Positions 4,021-22,022 of a stretch of 33,294 bases of DNA are shown one piece after another (within the stretch, counting starts at the first letter, position 1; every line of letters begins with the position of its first letter). This stretch comes from Clostridia bacterium. GTDB lineage: Bacteria > Bacillota > Clostridia > Christensenellales > Aristaeellaceae. The stretch spans positions 1 to 33,294 of the forward strand of contig JAFWXL010000109.1 in NCBI GenBank assembly GCA_017545905.1. Direction: 5' to 3'. Position numbers and translations under genes: made by a program. Under the pieces are notes generated by a model. It saw nothing but the letters and a program-made list of their open reading frames with translations, did not search any database and was not told the DNA's origin.

Positions 4021-4857
4021 ATGAGATTTTCCAAAATGCATGGCCTTGGCAACGATTATATCTATGTCAATGCTTTTAAGGAGACGATTGCCGATCCGAA
4101 TGCGCTGGCCAGACGAATCAGCGACAGGCATTTCGGTGTGGGCAGCGACGGTCTGGTGCTCATCGCGCCCAGCAGCGTGGCGGATTTTCAGATGCTCATG
4201 TACAATGCCGATGGCTCGCAGGGCGAGATGTGCGGAAATGCCAGCCGCTGCGTGGCCAAGTATGTCTATGATCGCGGCATGACGGACAATACGACTGTTA
4301 CGCTGGAAACGCTGGGCGGCGTCAAAACGCTGCATATGACGGTGAAGGACGGAAAGGTCGAGACAGTGCGCGTGGATATGGGCGAACCGAAAACGGCTTG
4401 CGCGCAAGTGCCCTGTACGCTGGGCGAGGGCGTGGTGTGCAGGGCAAAGATCCGTGCGCTGGATCGCGAGTTTGAGATTACGCCGGTCAACACCGGCAAT
4501 CCCCATGGCGTCATCTTTCTGGATGAACCGGTGGAGGCATTTGACATTTACAAATATGGCCCGGTGCTGGAAAGGCATCCGGCCTTCCCGAAAAAAGCGA
4601 ATATTGAGTTTGTCAATGTGCTCGCGCGGGACCGGCTGCGCATGCGCGTGTGGGAACGCGGCAGCGGCGTCACGCTGGCCTGCGGCACGGGTTCCTGCGC
4701 GGTACTGGTGGCGGCAAACCTGTGCGGCCTTGCACACAGACGGGCGACCATCGTGCTCGATGGCGGTGAACTGGTGGACGAATGGGACGAGGAGACAGGC
4801 CATGTGTTTATGACCGGTCCGGCGACCCACGTGTTTGACGGCGAATACGACATTTGA
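4021..4857 (+). CDS. dapF: Diaminopimelate epimerase
   Basis: Interconverts LL- and meso-diaminopimelate, the last step before meso-DAP enters lysine synthesis and peptidoglycan. The 278-residue length is normal. The two catalytic cysteines are present: Cys71 in EMCGNASRCVAKY and Cys221 in ACGTGSCAVLVAA. The N terminus MRFSKMHGLGNDY and the NTGNPHGVIF segment (158-166 region) are family signatures. The GNASRC form in place of GNGIRC is usual in clostridial enzymes. AAGGATG lies 11 nt before the ATG, a somewhat long spacing. It is 24 nt upstream of a small alarmone-hydrolase gene and probably co-transcribed. No clear promoter was found in the 80 nt before it. Confidence 0.96.
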   Translation: MRFSKMHGLGNDYIYVNAFKETIADPNALARRISDRHFGVGSDGLVLIAPSSVADFQMLMYNADGSQGEMCGNASRCVAKYVYDRGMTDNTTVTLETLGGVKTLHMTVKDGKVETVRVDMGEPKTACAQVPCTLGEGVVCRAKIRALDREFEITPVNTGNPHGVIFLDEPVEAFDIYKYGPVLERHPAFPKKANIEFVNVLARDRLRMRVWERGSGVTLACGTGSCAVLVAANLCGLAHRRATIVLDGGELVDEWDEETGHVFMTGPATHVFDGEYDI

Positions 4858-4881: not shown

Positions 4882-5457
4882 ATGACGCTCGTTTCCGACG
4901 CGATGATTTTTGCCGCCCGCGCACATGATGGCATGCTGCGCAAGGGAACCAGCATTCCCTATATCGTTCATCCTGCCGAGGTGGCGGCTATTGCAGCCAC
5001 ACTCACAGATGATCCTGAAATTCTGGCTGCGGCGCTGCTCCACGATGTGATGGAGGACTGCGGTGTGAGCGAGGAAGAGCTCGCCGCGCAGTTTGGCGCA
5101 CGCGTTGCGCATCTGGTCAAAAGCGAGACGCAGGAGCGATGCGGCGATCCGGCGGAGACATGGCTTGTGCGCAAGCAGGGCGCTGTTGCGCGGATTGCAA
5201 AGGGAGAACGGGCGGTTAAGATCATTGCGCTGAGCGATAAGCTGAGCAACATGCGGGCGATTCACAGGGATTATGATCGCGACGGAGAGCGCTTGTTCTT
5301 CCGCTTTCATCAGCACGATAAGGCGCTGCATGCCTGGTATTATCGCAGCTGCGCAGCGCTGCTGAGGGAAGAATTGGGCGGTACGTTGGCCTGGCAGGAA
5401 CTATCCGAACATATTGCCTACGTGTTTGCGGATATTCCGCAGATATCTGAACAATAA
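4882..5457 (+). CDS. HD-domain hydrolase, MESH1/SpoT-hydrolase-like
   Basis: A 191-residue HD-superfamily protein resembling the hydrolase half of RelA/SpoT enzymes and the single-domain MESH1/small alarmone hydrolases that cleave (p)ppGpp 3'-pyrophosphate. Visible metal-binding signature: His30 in YIVHP, His54-Asp55 and Glu58-Asp59 in ALLHDVMED, and Asp119 in ALSDKLSNM. The N-terminal AxxAHxGxxRKGTxIPYIxHP pattern is the family fingerprint. There is no synthetase domain, so it can only hydrolyse. Ribosome binding site GAGGTAG is weak. It follows dapF closely and a strong independent promoter begins right after it. Substrates other than ppGpp, such as NADPH for MESH1, are possible. Confidence 0.85.
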   Translation: MTLVSDAMIFAARAHDGMLRKGTSIPYIVHPAEVAAIAATLTDDPEILAAALLHDVMEDCGVSEEELAAQFGARVAHLVKSETQERCGDPAETWLVRKQGAVARIAKGERAVKIIALSDKLSNMRAIHRDYDRDGERLFFRFHQHDKALHAWYYRSCAALLREELGGTLAWQELSEHIAYVFADIPQISEQ

Positions 5458-5466
5458 AAGAAAGGC

Positions 5467-5495
5467 TTGACAGAACTGCCGGGAACGTGTATGAT
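5467..5495 (+). promoter_or_regulatory. Consensus promoter of the cysteine-rich mini-gene
   Basis: TTGACA (5467-5472) and TATGAT (5490-5495) are separated by exactly 17 bp. Transcription would start near 5502, immediately at a stable hairpin TGAGCGC-TG-GCGCTCA (5503-5518) at the 5' end of the transcript. Confidence 0.85.
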
Positions 5496-5553: not shown

Positions 5554-5622
5554 ATGAAGTGTTGTATGTCCAGTGTGGCGATGAACGTGCTGTTTTCCTC
5601 TATTTGTCTGATTTGTGCATGA
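5554..5622 (+). CDS. Putative 22-residue cysteine-rich peptide
   Basis: A small reading frame with its own consensus promoter, a strong ribosome binding site (GGAGGAGG, 5537-5544) 9 nt before the ATG, and a terminator stem starting 2 nt after the stop. The peptide reads MKCC, then a short polar-to-hydrophobic stretch, ending SSICLICA. It has four cysteines (positions 3, 4, 18, 21: a CC pair and a CxxC pair). I do not recognise it. It could be a metal-binding or secreted microprotein, a small membrane-active peptide, a leader peptide whose translation affects the adjoining terminator, or the coding part of a small regulatory RNA. A longer frame from 5535 runs through the terminator into carA and is unlikely. 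Confidence 0.5.
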   Translation: MKCCMSSVAMNVLFSSICLICA

Positions 5623-5623
5623 T

Positions 5624-5650
5624 AACCGCCTTTTGGCGGTTTTCTTTTTG
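5624..5650 (+). terminator. Terminator of the mini-gene, upstream of carA
   Basis: The stem AACCGCC-TTTT-GGCGGTT (7 bp, 4-nt loop) is followed by TTCTTTTT. It closes the ~150-nt transcript that starts near 5502. A ribosome at the stop codon (5620-5622) would cover the stem. Confidence 0.85.
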
Positions 5651-5661
5651 CTCGGCGCGAA

Positions 5662-5690
5662 TTGACGCTATTTGCTCAATGCGCTATAAT
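5662..5690 (+). promoter_or_regulatory. Promoter of carAB
   Basis: TTGACG (5662-5667) and a perfect TATAAT (5685-5690) are 17 bp apart. The resulting ~90-nt leader up to carA is AT-rich and shows no terminator hairpin or obvious PyrR-type anti-antiterminator, so I see no direct sign of pyrimidine attenuation. Confidence 0.88.
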
Positions 5691-5785
5691 TTCGCTGATA
5701 TACATGGAAATGTGCATATTTATACAGCAAATATACGAACATGTTTGAAAAGATTCCGGCTTTTGCATAAAGAAGGAGAGATTCG

Positions 5786-6835
5786 ATGGCAGTTTTGATC
5801 TTGGAAGATGGCACCCGCTTTGAAGGAACCCTGTTTGGCGATAAGCGCGGCGCCTGCGGCGAGGTGATCTTCACCACCGGCATGTGCGGCTATCAGCAAA
5901 CGCTCACCGATCCGGCTTACAGGGGACAGATTGTGTGCATGACCTATCCGCTCATCGGCAACGTGGGCGTCAATGATCTGGATTTTGAGAGCAGAGGCGT
6001 GCAGCCGGCGGGCGTTGTGGTGTCCGAACTGTGCGAACTGCCCAGTAACTGGCAGCTCAAAAAGAGCCTGGATGAATATATGAATGAGCAGGGCGTGACC
6101 GGCATCTATGGCGTGGATACCCGTGCGCTCACCCGTCATATCCGCAGACAGGGCGCGATGCGCGGCTGGATTGTGGAAAACGATCAGGAAGCGGCGGCGC
6201 TGGGGGCCATTGACAGCGACGTGATCATGGAAGCCTCCTGCAAGGAGGCGCATACCGTGAGCACCGGGGGCGACGTCAAGATCGCCGTGCTGGATCTGGG
6301 TATGAAGAAGAGCCTGACCGACTGGATTGTGAAGAAGGGCGCACAGGTGTCCGTCTTCCCGGCGAATACTGCGTCTGAGGAGATTCTCGCTTCCGGCTGC
6401 GACGGCGTGCTCATCTCCTGCGGCCCGGGCAACCCGAATGCGTATCCGCAGATCGTGGAGAACGTGAAGGCGCTGATGCAGATGAAGCCTGTCATGGGCG
6501 TGGGCACGGGCCATCTGATGATGGCGCTCGCCTCCGGCTGCAGGGTTTCCAAGATGCTCTACGGTCATCACGGCAGCAATCAGCCGGTGAAGGATTTTGC
6601 ACGCGGCACCTGCGCGGTGACCAGCCAGGCCATCGGCTATGCGGTGGACGGCGAGAGCCTGCCGGGCAGCGTAACCGTCAGCCATATCAACTGGAATGAC
6701 AAGACCGTTGAAGGCCTTCGCTATGAGGGAAGGAAGGCATTCTCCGTGGCGTTTGTGCCGGGCGGTCTGGGCGGTCCGTTTGATACGACGTATCTGTTTG
6801 ACGAATTCCTCGCGATGGTTCGCGATGTGAAGTAA
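5786..6835 (+). CDS. carA: Carbamoyl phosphate synthetase small subunit with a degenerate glutaminase site
   Basis: CarA normally hydrolyses glutamine and channels ammonia to CarB for arginine and pyrimidine synthesis. The 349-residue protein has the right architecture: N-terminal CPSase_sm_chain domain (MCGYQQTLTDPAYRGQIV at 33-50, YPLIGNVG at 54-61) and a class I amidotransferase domain from about 165. The glutaminase site is gone. By eye alignment to E. coli CarA: nucleophile Cys269 is Gly240 (PVMGVGTGHLMMA instead of G-[IV]-C-L-G-H-Q), His353 is Val324 and Glu355 is Gly326 (FVPGGLGGPFD instead of FHPEASPGPHD). Glutamine contacts also differ: Ser47 to Ala44, Gln273 to Leu244, Asn311-His312 to Ala282-Ile283. 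The frame is intact with AAGGAGAG before the ATG and it is 12 nt from carB, so it looks expressed but glutamine-inactive. Confidence 0.93.
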   Translation: MAVLILEDGTRFEGTLFGDKRGACGEVIFTTGMCGYQQTLTDPAYRGQIVCMTYPLIGNVGVNDLDFESRGVQPAGVVVSELCELPSNWQLKKSLDEYMNEQGVTGIYGVDTRALTRHIRRQGAMRGWIVENDQEAAALGAIDSDVIMEASCKEAHTVSTGGDVKIAVLDLGMKKSLTDWIVKKGAQVSVFPANTASEEILASGCDGVLISCGPGNPNAYPQIVENVKALMQMKPVMGVGTGHLMMALASGCRVSKMLYGHHGSNQPVKDFARGTCAVTSQAIGYAVDGESLPGSVTVSHINWNDKTVEGLRYEGRKAFSVAFVPGGLGGPFDTTYLFDEFLAMVRDVK

Positions 6836-6847
6836 GGGGGCCTGACT

Positions 6848-10066
<3,219 letters not shown>

Positions 10067-10069
<3 letters not shown>

Positions 10070-18202: not shown

Positions 18203-18266
18203 CGATACACTACCCCTTTCAGAACGGGTGCAGAGGATTTTCCGCTTGTATGACGGAGGAGGATGT

Positions 18267-21200
18267 ATGGTGAGTCAGGTAAGAAGAATTTATGCTGAAA
18301 AGCGTCCGGGATATGACGTGGCTGCGCAGCAGCTGCGCGGCGAGCTTTGCGATGTGCTGGGCACGCAGGCGATTGAGCGCGTGCGCATTTTCCAGCGCTA
18401 TGACGTGGAGGGGCTTTCCGAGGCTGCGCTTGAGAGCGCGAAGGGTATCATCTTCTCCGAGCCGAACGTGGATGTTTTGTATGACGAGAACCTGCCGGAG
18501 ATGGACGCCCATCTGCTGGCTGTGGAATACCTGCCCGGTCAGTATGACCAGCGCGCGGACAGCGCCAGCCAGTGCCTGCAGCTGCTCAGCCCGAATGAAG
18601 AGCGCCCGAAGGTTGTCTGTGCGAAGGTGTACGCCATCGAGGGCGCTCAGGTGACCCGCGTGATGATGGATGCGGTTGCCGCCCATCTGATCAACCCGGT
18701 CGAGGCGCGCCGCGCCTCCATGGAAAAGCCGGAGACGCTGGCTATGCAGGCCGACGTTCCTGCGGACGTGGCTGTGCTGGAGGGCTTTATCGCCATGAGC
18801 GATAAGGAGCTTGCCGCGATGGTTCGCTCCATGGGCATGGCGATGAGCGCGGAAGACCTGTGCTTCTGCCGCGACTATTTCCGCGACAGCGAGAAGCGTG
18901 ATCCGTCTGTGACGGAGCTGCGCGCGATCGATACCTACTGGTCCGATCACTGCCGCCATACGACATTCCTGACCGCGATTGACGAGTTCGAGTTCGAAAG
19001 CGGCCTGTTTGCCGAGCCGATCAAGGCGGCGTACGAGCTGTATATCGATACGCGCAAGGACGTCTACGGCGAGCGCAAGAAGGACGTGTCCCTGATGGAC
19101 ATGGCGACGCTCGGCGCGAAGGCGCTGCGCAGAATCGGCAAACTGGATGATCTGGACGCCTCTGACGAGATCAACGCGTGCTCCATCGTCGTTACCGCAA
19201 ATGTGGACGGCAGGGAAGAGCCATGGCTGATCATGTTCAAGAATGAGACGCATAACCATCCCACCGAGATTGAGGGCTTCGGCGGCGCGGCCACCTGTCT
19301 GGGCGGTGCGATCCGCGATCCGCTCTCCGGCCGCAGCTATGTCTATCAGGCGATGCGCATCACCGGCGCGGGTGATCCGCGCGTGCCGTATTCCCGTACC
19401 CGTCAGGGCAAGCTGCCTCAGCGCCGCATCACCACCACCGCCGCGCAGGGCTATTCTTCTTACGGCAACCAGATTGGTCTGGCCGCCGGCAAGGTGCAGG
19501 AATATTATCATCCGGGCTTTGTTGCCAAGCGCATGGAGCTGGGCGCCGTTATTGCGGCGACTCCGCGTGATCATGTGCGCCGCGGCCAGCCGGCCCCGGG
19601 CGACGTGGTCATGCTGCTGGGCGGACGCACTGGCCGCGATGGCTGCGGCGGCGCGACGGGCTCTTCCAAGGCGCACAGCGTGGAGTCCCTGTCTACCTGC
19701 GGTGCGGAGGTACAGAAGGGTAATCCGCCGACCGAGCGCTGCATCCAGCGCCTGTTCCGCAACGGTGAGTTTGCGCAGATGGTCAAGCGCTGCAATGACT
19801 TCGGTGCGGGCGGCGTGTGCGTTGCCGTGGGCGAACTGGCCCCGGGGCTTGTCATCGAGCTGGACGCCGTGCCCAAGAAGTACGAGGGTCTGGACGGCAC
19901 CGAGCTGGCGATCTCCGAGTCCCAGGAGCGCATGGCCTGCGTGATCGAAAGCGATATGGTCGAGCGCTTCAAGCAGATGGCCTATGAGGAGAATCTCGAG
20001 GCGACGCAGGTGGCGACCGTCACCGAAGAGGCGCGTCTGGTGATGCACTGGCGCGGCAAGACCATCGTGGATCTCTCCCGCGAGTTCCTGGATACAAACG
20101 GCGTGACCCAGCACGCAAAGGCTGTAATCGCCGCGCCGGCAGAGGATCAGCCCTATCTGACCGCGCAGCCGGACTTTGCCCGCGGAAAAACCGTGCGCGA
20201 GGCGTGGCTGTCCATGCTCGGCGATCTCAATATTTGTTCTCAGAAGGGCATGGTCGAACGCTTCGATGCGACCATCGGCGCCAGCACGATCCTTGCGCCG
20301 TACGGCGGCGTGCATCGCGACAGCCCGAACGAGGCGATGGCTGCGCTGATCCCGACCGACGGCGAGACCACCACCGCGACCCTGATGTCTCACGGCTATG
20401 ATCCGTATCTGAGCGAGTGGAGCCCGTTCCACGGCGCTGTGTATGCGGTGACCGAGTCTCTTGCCAAGATCTGCGCGGCCGGCGGCGACGTGACCAGGGC
20501 GCGCCTGACCTTCCAGGAGTATTTTGAGAAGCTGGCCAGGGAGCCGCGCCGCTGGGGCAAGCCCGCCGCTGCGCTGCTGGGCGGCCTGAGCGCTCAGCTG
20601 GGCTTTGGCACCGCGTCCATCGGCGGCAAGGATTCCATGTCCGGTACGTTTGAGGATATTCACGTTCCGCCGACGCTTGTCTCCTTCGCGGTGAATGCAG
20701 TCGAAGCGAAGAATATCATCTCTACCGATTTTAAGGGCGGAGACCACCGAATCGCGCTGCTGCGCCTGCCGGTGGACGAGCATCTCGTGCCGGTTTATGA
20801 CAAGGCGCTCATGCGCTATGATCTGCTGCGTCAGGCGATTGAGCGCGGCGACGTGCTTGCGGCGCATACCGTGGGCCGCGGCGGCGTGGCTGCTGCTGTG
20901 ACGATGATGGCGCTGGGCAGCCGCATCGGCGTGAATCTGACGGGCGTAACGGAAGAGGAGCTCTTCCTGCCGGCATACGGCTCCATCGTCTGCGAGCTGG
21001 CTGACGGTGCGCCGGTTCCGGCTGGCCTTGAGGTTGTCGGCTTCACGTCCGAGCATCCCATGATCAATGTGCTGGGCACGATGGTTTCCCTTGCTCAGGC
21101 GGATAAGGCATGGAAGGAGCCGCTGGAGAGCGTATTCCCGACGGATGCGCCGGCAAGACATTCCGTTGCGCCGTACAAGCCGTTTGTGGCGCGCAATACG

Positions 21201-22022
21201 AACCGCCCGGCGATCCATGTGGCCAGGCCGCGCGTGTTCATTCCGTCTTTCCCGGGCACCAACTGCGAACTGGACAGCGCCAAGGCTTTCCGCCGTGCGG
21301 GCGCCGAGGTGGATACGTTCATCTTCCGCAACCTGACGGCAAAGGGCATTGAGGAATCCGTCGAAGCGATCGTGAAGGGCATTGAAAACGCGCAGATCGT
21401 CATGCTGCCGGGCGGCTTCTCCGCCGGCGATGAGCCGGACGGTTCCGGCAAGTTCATCGCCACCGCGTTGCGCAATCCGCGCATCATGGATGCGATCCAT
21501 ACGCTGCTGGATCAGCGTGACGGCCTGATGCTGGGCATCTGCAACGGCTTCCAGGCGCTTATCAAGCTGGGTCTGGTTCCCTACGGCGAGATCCGCACGC
21601 TCAGCGAAGCGGATCCGACGCTGACCTATAACACGATCGGCCGCCATGCCGCCACGCATGTGCGCACCGTGGTTTCCTCCGTCAAATCCCCGTGGATGGC
21701 GGGCGTACATGTCGGCGACGTGCATGAGGTTGCGATTTCCCACGGCGAGGGCCGCTTCGTCTGCCGCGAGGGCCAGCTGCGCCGCCTGATGGAAAACGGC
21801 CAGATCGTCACGCAGTACTGCGATGAATTCGGCATTCCGGCCGCCCGGATGCCGCTCAACCCGAACGGCTCCTACTGGGCGATCGAGGGTATCTGTTCGC
21901 CGGACGGTCGTGTGCTGGGCAAGATGGGCCACAGCGAACGCACCGGCAGGTTTGTTGCCAGCAATATTCCGGGCAATAAGGATCAGAGAATCTTTGAATC
22001 CGGCGTTCGTTACTTCCTGTAA
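18267..22022 (+). CDS. purL: Phosphoribosylformylglycinamidine synthase, single-chain
   Basis: Converts FGAR, glutamine and ATP to FGAM in purine synthesis. The 1251-residue protein joins the synthetase and glutaminase in one chain, as in the clostridial-type long PurL. Landmarks: TYWSDHCRHTTF near the start of the synthetase domain, FKNETHNHPTEIEGFGGAATCLGGAIRDPLSGR, a second PurM-like half with GGLSAQLGFGTASIGGKDSMSG, and the class I glutaminase from about 990 (FIPSFPGTNCELDSAKAF). The glutaminase triad is present: Cys1092 in GICNGFQ, His1222 and Glu1224 in KMGHSER. The ATG at 18267 follows GGAGGAGG; the GTG at 18228 would sit too close to the transcription start. Monocistronic, with its own promoter and terminator; other pur genes are not nearby. 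Confidence 0.96.
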   Translation: MVSQVRRIYAEKRPGYDVAAQQLRGELCDVLGTQAIERVRIFQRYDVEGLSEAALESAKGIIFSEPNVDVLYDENLPEMDAHLLAVEYLPGQYDQRADSASQCLQLLSPNEERPKVVCAKVYAIEGAQVTRVMMDAVAAHLINPVEARRASMEKPETLAMQADVPADVAVLEGFIAMSDKELAAMVRSMGMAMSAEDLCFCRDYFRDSEKRDPSVTELRAIDTYWSDHCRHTTFLTAIDEFEFESGLFAEPIKAAYELYIDTRKDVYGERKKDVSLMDMATLGAKALRRIGKLDDLDASDEINACSIVVTANVDGREEPWLIMFKNETHNHPTEIEGFGGAATCLGGAIRDPLSGRSYVYQAMRITGAGDPRVPYSRTRQGKLPQRRITTTAAQGYSSYGNQIGLAAGKVQEYYHPGFVAKRMELGAVIAATPRDHVRRGQPAPGDVVMLLGGRTGRDGCGGATGSSKAHSVESLSTCGAEVQKGNPPTERCIQRLFRNGEFAQMVKRCNDFGAGGVCVAVGELAPGLVIELDAVPKKYEGLDGTELAISESQERMACVIESDMVERFKQMAYEENLEATQVATVTEEARLVMHWRGKTIVDLSREFLDTNGVTQHAKAVIAAPAEDQPYLTAQPDFARGKTVREAWLSMLGDLNICSQKGMVERFDATIGASTILAPYGGVHRDSPNEAMAALIPTDGETTTATLMSHGYDPYLSEWSPFHGAVYAVTESLAKICAAGGDVTRARLTFQEYFEKLAREPRRWGKPAAALLGGLSAQLGFGTASIGGKDSMSGTFEDIHVPPTLVSFAVNAVEAKNIISTDFKGGDHRIALLRLPVDEHLVPVYDKALMRYDLLRQAIERGDVLAAHTVGRGGVAAAVTMMALGSRIGVNLTGVTEEELFLPAYGSIVCELADGAPVPAGLEVVGFTSEHPMINVLGTMVSLAQADKAWKEPLESVFPTDAPARHSVAPYKPFVARNTNRPAIHVARPRVFIPSFPGTNCELDSAKAFRRAGAEVDTFIFRNLTAKGIEESVEAIVKGIENAQIVMLPGGFSAGDEPDGSGKFIATALRNPRIMDAIHTLLDQRDGLMLGICNGFQALIKLGLVPYGEIRTLSEADPTLTYNTIGRHAATHVRTVVSSVKSPWMAGVHVGDVHEVAISHGEGRFVCREGQLRRLMENGQIVTQYCDEFGIPAARMPLNPNGSYWAIEGICSPDGRVLGKMGHSERTGRFVASNIPGNKDQRIFESGVRYFL

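Follow-up and report, generated by a model that had tools for sequence, protein, structure and literature searches.

Recurrent loss of the glutaminase triad in the small subunit of carbamoyl phosphate synthetase among Bacillota

The carAB locus and the catalytic positions of CarA

The window, that is, the whole stretch of 33,294 nucleotides that was analysed, carries adjoining genes for the two subunits of carbamoyl phosphate synthetase (CPS). The small subunit is encoded by carA (5786..6835, + strand, 349 aa), whose frame is full length with no internal stop, as a previous sequence-only reading of this DNA had stated. The product exceeds the curated cut-offs of NCBIfam model TIGR01368 (381 bits, cut-off 307) and of both Pfam domains (PF00988, 175 bits; PF00117, 104 bits). 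After a gap of 12 bases follows carB (6848..10069, +), which encodes a synthetase subunit of 1073 aa (TIGR01369, 1463 bits). In an alignment reaching to near residue 980, window CarB shares with its E. coli counterpart the WKE.E motif of the first half and, in either half, the RP and IE.NPR motifs; we presume the functional roles of these motifs. Upstream of carA lie a sigma-70-like promoter TTGACG-17-TATAAT (5662..5690, +; called purely by consensus, with 11 of 12 positions matching) and, before the start codon, a Shine-Dalgarno-like AAGGAG (5773..5778, +). A terminator-like hairpin (5624..5649, +), likewise a consensus match only, precedes the promoter. Together with the 12-base gap, these features agree with the earlier description of promoter and carB spacing as normal. 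Two further genes serve as synteny markers: dapF (4021..4857, +) and a gene of 191 aa (4882..5457, +) with a partial, below-cut-off match to RelA/SpoT.

Several other features of the region are recorded here. Between a promoter-like site (5467-5495) and the hairpin lies a Cys-rich ORF of 22 residues (5554-5622, +; MKCCMSSVAMNVLFSSICLICA); like-placed short Cys-bearing ORFs precede carA at loci L041, L042 and L043, and none was picked up at L032. Antisense to carAB runs an open frame of 822 aa without any Pfam match (5720-8188, -), likely a by-product of base composition. The contig starts with the end of a 23S rRNA gene (1-295, +) and a 5S rRNA gene (572-688, +); the only two RNA-family matches in the window at gathering threshold are both rRNA at this start, and none lies near carA.

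Residue equivalences were taken from an alignment of window CarA to E. coli CarA in the PDB. The window protein resembles the E. coli CPS II small subunit in sequence, domain order, adjacency to carB and Gly359 (kept as Gly330), but differs in all catalytic positions: Cys269 corresponds to Gly240 (codon GGC, 6503..6505, +), His353 to Val324 (GTG, 6755..6757, +) and Glu355 to Gly326 (GGC, 6761..6763, +). Ser47, Gln273, Asn311 and His312 are likewise replaced, by Ala44, Leu244, Ala282 and Ile283, respectively. Both sets of changes had been read from the letters; the alignment and a check of the altered codons confirm them. The residues Cys269, His353 and Glu355 of CarA are required for glutamine hydrolysis. 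Because the alignment continues without a break through both catalytic sites, the triad is not displaced to another part of the protein, and a misaligned, hidden triad is ruled out by this alignment together with that of 145 CarA rows described below. A sequencing error is very unlikely (a single error had already been ruled out in the sequence-only reading), given that CarA is degenerate at the same place behind dapF in seven other genomes of the genus. The protein passes the sequence cut-offs of the CPS II small subunit and adjoins an intact CarB, and lacks Cys-His-Glu. We treat it as a CarA homologue and do not file it as a glutamine-hydrolysing CarA, as the residue loss argues against hydrolysis.

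Occurrence in the genus, the family and the phylum

Of 29 genomes searched in the genus, 26 gave a CarA match. Eight of these, including the window's own genome (G000), carry a full-length degenerate CarA of the window type, for brevity termed dead, as are other CarA without the full triad. Its replacements vary: in place of Cys/His/Glu we find Gly-Val-Gly (G000, G135, G207), Gly-Val-Ser (G096), Gly-Ile-Ala (G177), Asp-Thr-Ala (G210) and Ala-Tyr-Asp (G209), while G208 retains Cys and has Val-Asp for His and Glu. The gene order dapF, RelA/SpoT-like gene, carA, carB is common to the window, L032, L041, L042 and L043 and to the intact sisters L046 and L047; at L045 it can be followed up to carA, where the contig ends, and dapF also lies upstream of carA in G208, G209 and G210 (L089-L091). 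The shared gene order therefore identifies the dead carA as an orthologue in place. The sequence-only reading had named related genomes as the place to look for the same changes and for a second carA. Besides the seven further degenerate genomes, there is one additional carA each in G096 and G177, whose product is divergent, has the full triad and is accompanied by a separate CarB; the other six hold one CarA only at completeness 78-93%, and the 77.8% of G000 itself limits inference on a second carA there. The intact second carAB of G096 is neighboured by guaA (GMP synthase), and G177 has a like-placed frame with a length like that of G096 guaA (loci L048, L049). The relatives at L033 and L032 are MAGs of rumen or gut type, the latter from sheep rectum; the window bacterium is probably from an animal gut.

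In the wider family, CarA matches were obtained in 138 of 200 genomes. We opened 146 CarA loci, drawn from the family, the genus, second copies and five outside (the family matches left out are mostly fragments or lower-ranked), and aligned 145 proteins: 120 have Cys-His-Glu, 22 do not, and 3 end before a catalytic position. The 22 comprise the eight of the window's genus clade, seven of genus g25 (Gly with Met-Gln, Leu-Gln or Gln-Ala), one each in G045, G034 and G041, the second CarA copies of two g6 genomes (G005 and G156), the CarA of G191 (Ser for Cys, His and Glu kept) and that of Allobacillus saliphilus (L034). At the nucleophile position 18 have Gly, and Asp, Ala, Ser and Cys occur once each. 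Not all of genus g25 has lost the triad, which is intact in G162 and G111. A tree of 142 CarA rows requires at least seven changes, also when the catalytic columns are removed. As judged from these sequences, loss of the triad is recurrent and extends across several families of Bacillota, a partial answer to the question of how widespread it is, which had been left open. In the CarA tree the dead genus clade and G034 group together, again also without the catalytic columns, at a point where long branches meet. The CarB tree places G034 outside the dead genus clade, beyond intact relatives, and a separate loss in G034 is therefore more likely.

A motif scan of 398 genomes of the phylum returned 51 places in 49 genomes, all of which were opened; 14 are CarA, in 14 genomes. 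The scan detects only Cys to Gly changes with kept GHQ and certain codons, so that this count is a lower bound and carries no information on how often Gly is the replacement. One place (G515, a frame of 202 aa) matches CarA in part, in a genome without a PF00988 match, and for 36 blastp found no similarity to any of six reference CarA; the sequence GLI/V..A...GLGHQFL occurs in 13 of these, which are presumably the GTPase ObgE. A scan centred on Allobacillus (348 genomes, 16 places) shares 15 coordinates with the first, adds Allobacillus only, and seems to be a redraw of the same set. Dead CarA is found among arginine genes in G252, G257, most of g25, G045 and one copy of G223, and among pyrimidine genes in G191, G005, G459, G611, Allobacillus and the other copy of G223. 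The arg names, as well as the pyr names outside pyrR, pyrB and pyrC of locus L351, were assigned by reading and similarity. Two genomes listed as 96% and 99% complete, G377 (L273, L278) and G223 (L272, L276), each have two CarA genes, neither with a full triad.

We note a gene fusion encountered among these loci. At L193:2019-6044 (-) CarB is fused in frame to the diaminopimelate epimerase DapF; the fusion protein has 1341 aa and exceeds the cut-offs of both NCBIfam models. Frame length and dapF similarity indicate the same fusion at L189-L192, L194-L197, L203-L205, L052, L059 and L060 and, in another family, at L282. By contrast, dapF of the window is a gene of its own that precedes carA.

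Selection on CarA, second copies and ammonium transport

Within the dead genus clade CarB is 88-98% identical and CarA 55-80%. The ratio of CarA to CarB divergence (log identities) has a median of 4.6 in this clade versus 1.6 in intact relatives, and the corresponding values for g25 are 3.5 versus 2.1; measured against CarB, the divergence of CarA is thus roughly threefold higher in the dead clade than among intact relatives. Median Nei-Gojobori dN/dS values are 0.41 for CarA and 0.13 for CarB in the dead clade, 0.26 and 0.20 in intact relatives, and 0.20-0.52 for CarA in seven listed pairs of the window with its clade; all are rough figures from a simple method and non-independent pairs. Columns invariant in 11 intact CarA were checked for the absence of change in all 8 dead CarA: 63 of 98 remain unchanged in the N domain and 48 of 121 in the glutaminase domain (p 0.0004). 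The relaxation is concentrated in the glutaminase domain, and dead CarA is under purifying selection. It is no pseudogene, the open frame and a dN/dS below neutral both speaking against this. At least one transcarbamylase-family gene is present in all 22 genomes tested, and in 7 of them only one was seen.

A conserved form of the loss occurs in family f27, where CarA was found in 11 of the 12 genomes searched and all 11 carry a Gly-Asp-Glu protein. These dead CarA have the motif FDPE[GS][YF].G[YF]S[ED]T in common (11 of 11 genomes; L320-L324, L328-L333), and such conservation, rather than drift, hints at a positive role for the dead protein. In the nine genomes whose surroundings were fetched, the gene sits in the order pyrR-pyrB-pyrC-carA-carB-pyrK-pyrD-pyrF-pyrE (pyrR, pyrB and pyrC of L351 named by NCBIfam). 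Six of the 11 genomes harbour an additional, intact CarA (G589, G547, G526, G456, G278, G406). In G547, G589, G278 and G406 it is adjoined by genes for PII and the ammonium transporter Amt; in G456 its neighbour is a glutamate-synthase-like cluster, and 5-7 kb separate it from Amt and PII. For G526, a glutamate-synthase-like gene of weak similarity was seen at a distance of 2.6 kb, and 17 kb of sequence gave no match to Amt or PII. NCBIfam models supplied the names of PII, Amt and one part of glutamate synthase. No carB is found beside the intact f27 CarA in four wider regions (L353, L355, L357, L359). G589 and G456 have one CarB for two CarA; G547, G526, G278 and G406 have two CarB. Among 78 loci compared, PII/Amt matches occur at four (L353, L355, L357, L368), all of them the intact CarA of genomes that also hold a dead one; four further intact-CarA loci of dead-CarA genomes (L048, L049, L359, L369) gave no match.

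The presence of Amt was compared in 66 genomes of known CarA state. These are the genomes at hand and not a random sample: all 25 intact-only genomes belong to family f1, and genomes outside f1, except Allobacillus, were included because they, or relatives of theirs, showed the Gly motif. Of the 29 genomes that lack an intact CarA, 1 has Amt, versus 27 of 37 others (Fisher p 5e-9), the single case being G207 with Amt in two fragments. The others comprise 12 genomes with a dead and a second CarA, 11 of which have Amt (the exception is G005, whose intact CarA is not accompanied by Amt; in G156 the second CarA is in fragments with the triad unread), and the 25 intact-only genomes, 16 with and 9 without Amt. 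At a completeness of at least 90% the counts are 0 of 18 versus 20 of 24 (p 2e-8), within f1 alone 1 of 17 versus 19 of 29 (p 0.0001), and within f27 alone 0 of 5 versus 6 of 6. Since the Fisher test treats kin as independent, pairs from a CarB tree were used as well (one CarB for each of 62 genomes out of the 66, with paralogues mixed). Of 12 independent pairs, a mean of 8.7 show Amt in the direction opposite to the loss of intact CarA, and none show it in the same direction (median p 0.004, range 0.001-0.03). A control permease of an unrelated family shows no difference (24 of 29 versus 28 of 37, p 0.56), although it is less frequent among genomes with a dead and a second CarA (6 of 12); assembly gaps therefore do not explain the Amt result. 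The association between loss of intact CarA and absence of Amt is strong. As genomes without intact CarA nearly always lack Amt, their arginine and pyrimidines are probably built from free ammonia.

Other glutamine amidotransferases were considered for comparison. A window gene outside the carAB system (18228..22022, +; start unsettled), which from reading we take to be purL, keeps the nucleophile motif GICNGFQ as well as MGHSE, as had been noted. The further claim that the loss is specific to CarA does not hold. A search for class I glutaminase domains covered 12 genomes, with all but three of the matches opened (the three being two of G096 and one of G045). Gly replaces Cys in GuaA of G135 (L311), in the GuaA-like genes L236 and L307 of G034 and, with HPE kept, in PyrG of G034 (L220) and G024 (L223); the families of these degenerate proteins were named by model. 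Cys is kept in GuaA and PyrG of G187 and G096, in PyrG of G045, and in HisH, named from motif and length, in the nine genomes read. In G000, at 77.8% completeness, CarA and HisH were the only class I domains detected. A weak class I match (G045:C153:8469-8981, 41 bits) in a frame of 506 aa, the length of a GMP synthase, is a candidate for another degenerate GuaA.

The nitrogen donor of the synthetase

Taken together, we consider it probable that window carAB encodes an ammonia-dependent CPS of ammonia-rich niches in which CarA is kept as a non-catalytic subunit. A class I site cannot form the thioester without its Cys nucleophile; from the residues lost and the established chemistry of CarA, we infer that the enzyme no longer hydrolyses glutamine. 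CarB would then make carbamoyl phosphate from bicarbonate, 2 ATP and free ammonia, with CarA retained as a folded partner that caps or stabilises CarB and whose glutaminase pocket would be left to drift. Ammonia may reach CarB by an alternative path or through the emptied CarA pocket. The nucleophile of class I glutaminases sits on a strained turn, and Gly may be favoured as a replacement by relieving it; mutant work on Cys269 of E. coli is reportedly due to Rubino and colleagues. The change, mostly Cys to Gly, would have arisen repeatedly in Bacillota for which ammonia is rarely scarce and from which Amt has been lost, while lineages that keep Amt would mostly hold an intact CarA as well. An ammonia-dependent synthetase with non-catalytic CarA in an ammonia-rich habitat had been proposed from the sequence alone. 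The comparative data support this well (purifying selection, conservation of CarB, absence of Amt also in independent pairs, a transcarbamylase-family gene in every genome tested); the switch of donor is what we infer.

Other observations bear on this reading from both sides. Window PurL, and HisH in nine genomes, keep Cys and point to continued use of glutamine elsewhere in metabolism. According to a review (PMC6245113), the E. coli enzyme requires ammonia at very high levels that are likely of no physiological relevance, which counts against an ammonia-dependent enzyme; by extension the review takes glutamine to be the donor for all bacterial CPS. PMC4655335 describes CPS1 as unable to use glutamine since its Cys is Ser. 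It reports that E. coli variants whose tunnel is blocked or perforated retain normal activity on external ammonia, and it proposes an alternative route for ammonia.

Three alternatives were weighed against the ammonia-dependent synthetase. The dead CarA may have gained a regulatory or ligand-binding role beyond that of a mere cap, such as the sensing of a nitrogen metabolite. The motif that stands in place of FHPE in all 11 CarA-bearing f27 genomes favours this, but the pocket varies between relatives in the window's genus and no result indicates a ligand, so that we consider such a role unlikely. Somewhat less probable still is a supply of ammonia in trans, with CarB fed by an intact CarA elsewhere or by a different amidotransferase and the synthetase still dependent on glutamine. 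An intact-triad CarA does accompany the dead one in 12 of 41 dead-CarA genomes (counting G156, with fragments only and the triad unread), and G589 and G456 hold one CarB with two CarA, one of them intact. Against this, no intact CarA was found in the other 29 genomes, 18 of which are at least 90% complete and two of which (G480 and G232) are assembled as a single contig. Least probable of all, and in our view very improbable, is the decay of carA into a pseudogene, with CarB working alone or dispensable through salvage of arginine and pyrimidines. The fast evolution of CarA relative to CarB would fit such decay, as would uracil/xanthine-type permeases in 24 of the 29 genomes without intact CarA; opposed to it are the full-length frame and the dN/dS of the seven window pairs, the high identity of CarB within the clade, the transcarbamylase-family genes in all 22 genomes and the conserved motif of f27.

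The ammonia-dependent reading has partial counterparts among known systems. Vertebrate CPS I is ammonia-specific and also combines a synthetase with an inactive glutaminase-like part, its S2 domain, in which the catalytic Cys is replaced (PMC4655335). The window type shares the replaced nucleophile but is encoded by two genes, with mostly Gly and often without His and Glu, whereas CPS I is a single polypeptide with Ser; both have arisen independently. Single-domain NAD synthetase NadE is likewise an amidotransferase-type synthetase and uses free ammonia in vivo, according to PMC3376133; unlike NadE, in which the glutaminase domain is absent, window CarA keeps the domain in a dead state. A further CPS of a gut prokaryote, the 41-kDa enzyme of Methanobrevibacter smithii, is described in section 3.1 of PMC6022934 as a dimer of synthetase domains that performs the full reaction, with glutaminase unmentioned there; unlike the window CPS, it is not a CarAB heterodimer. 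Searches of an open-access library, a scope with most subscription papers outside it, brought up no title or abstract on a glutaminase-dead bacterial CarA. Enzymes of this class are known, and the bacterial form seems to be new.

The observation is larger than first stated, comprising recurrent loss in Bacillota alongside absence of Amt. Tentatively, and with somewhat less confidence than an even chance would warrant, we suggest as a joint reading that several Bacillota switched nucleotide and arginine synthesis to free ammonia, with CarA and some GuaA and PyrG convergently becoming dead scaffolds, mostly through Cys to Gly, and Amt being lost, and that a subunit swap in some f27 cells changes the nitrogen donor. 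In such a swap the dead CarA of the pyr operon would serve in ammonia plenty and an intact CarA, without a carB of its own and beside PII/Amt or glutamate-synthase genes, in nitrogen starvation, both with one CarB. For annotation, we note that the automatic NCBIfam model name puts 'glutamine-hydrolyzing' on such triad-less CarA proteins. Dead CarA also provides a natural experiment on roles of the glutaminase subunit besides hydrolysis, and f27 a testable case of subunit swapping to change the nitrogen donor. If the reading is true, bacteria have repeatedly evolved a step known from vertebrate CPS I, and one readable from sequence; if free ammonia is indeed used, the joint absence of intact CarA and Amt would be a genomic marker for ammonia-replete life.
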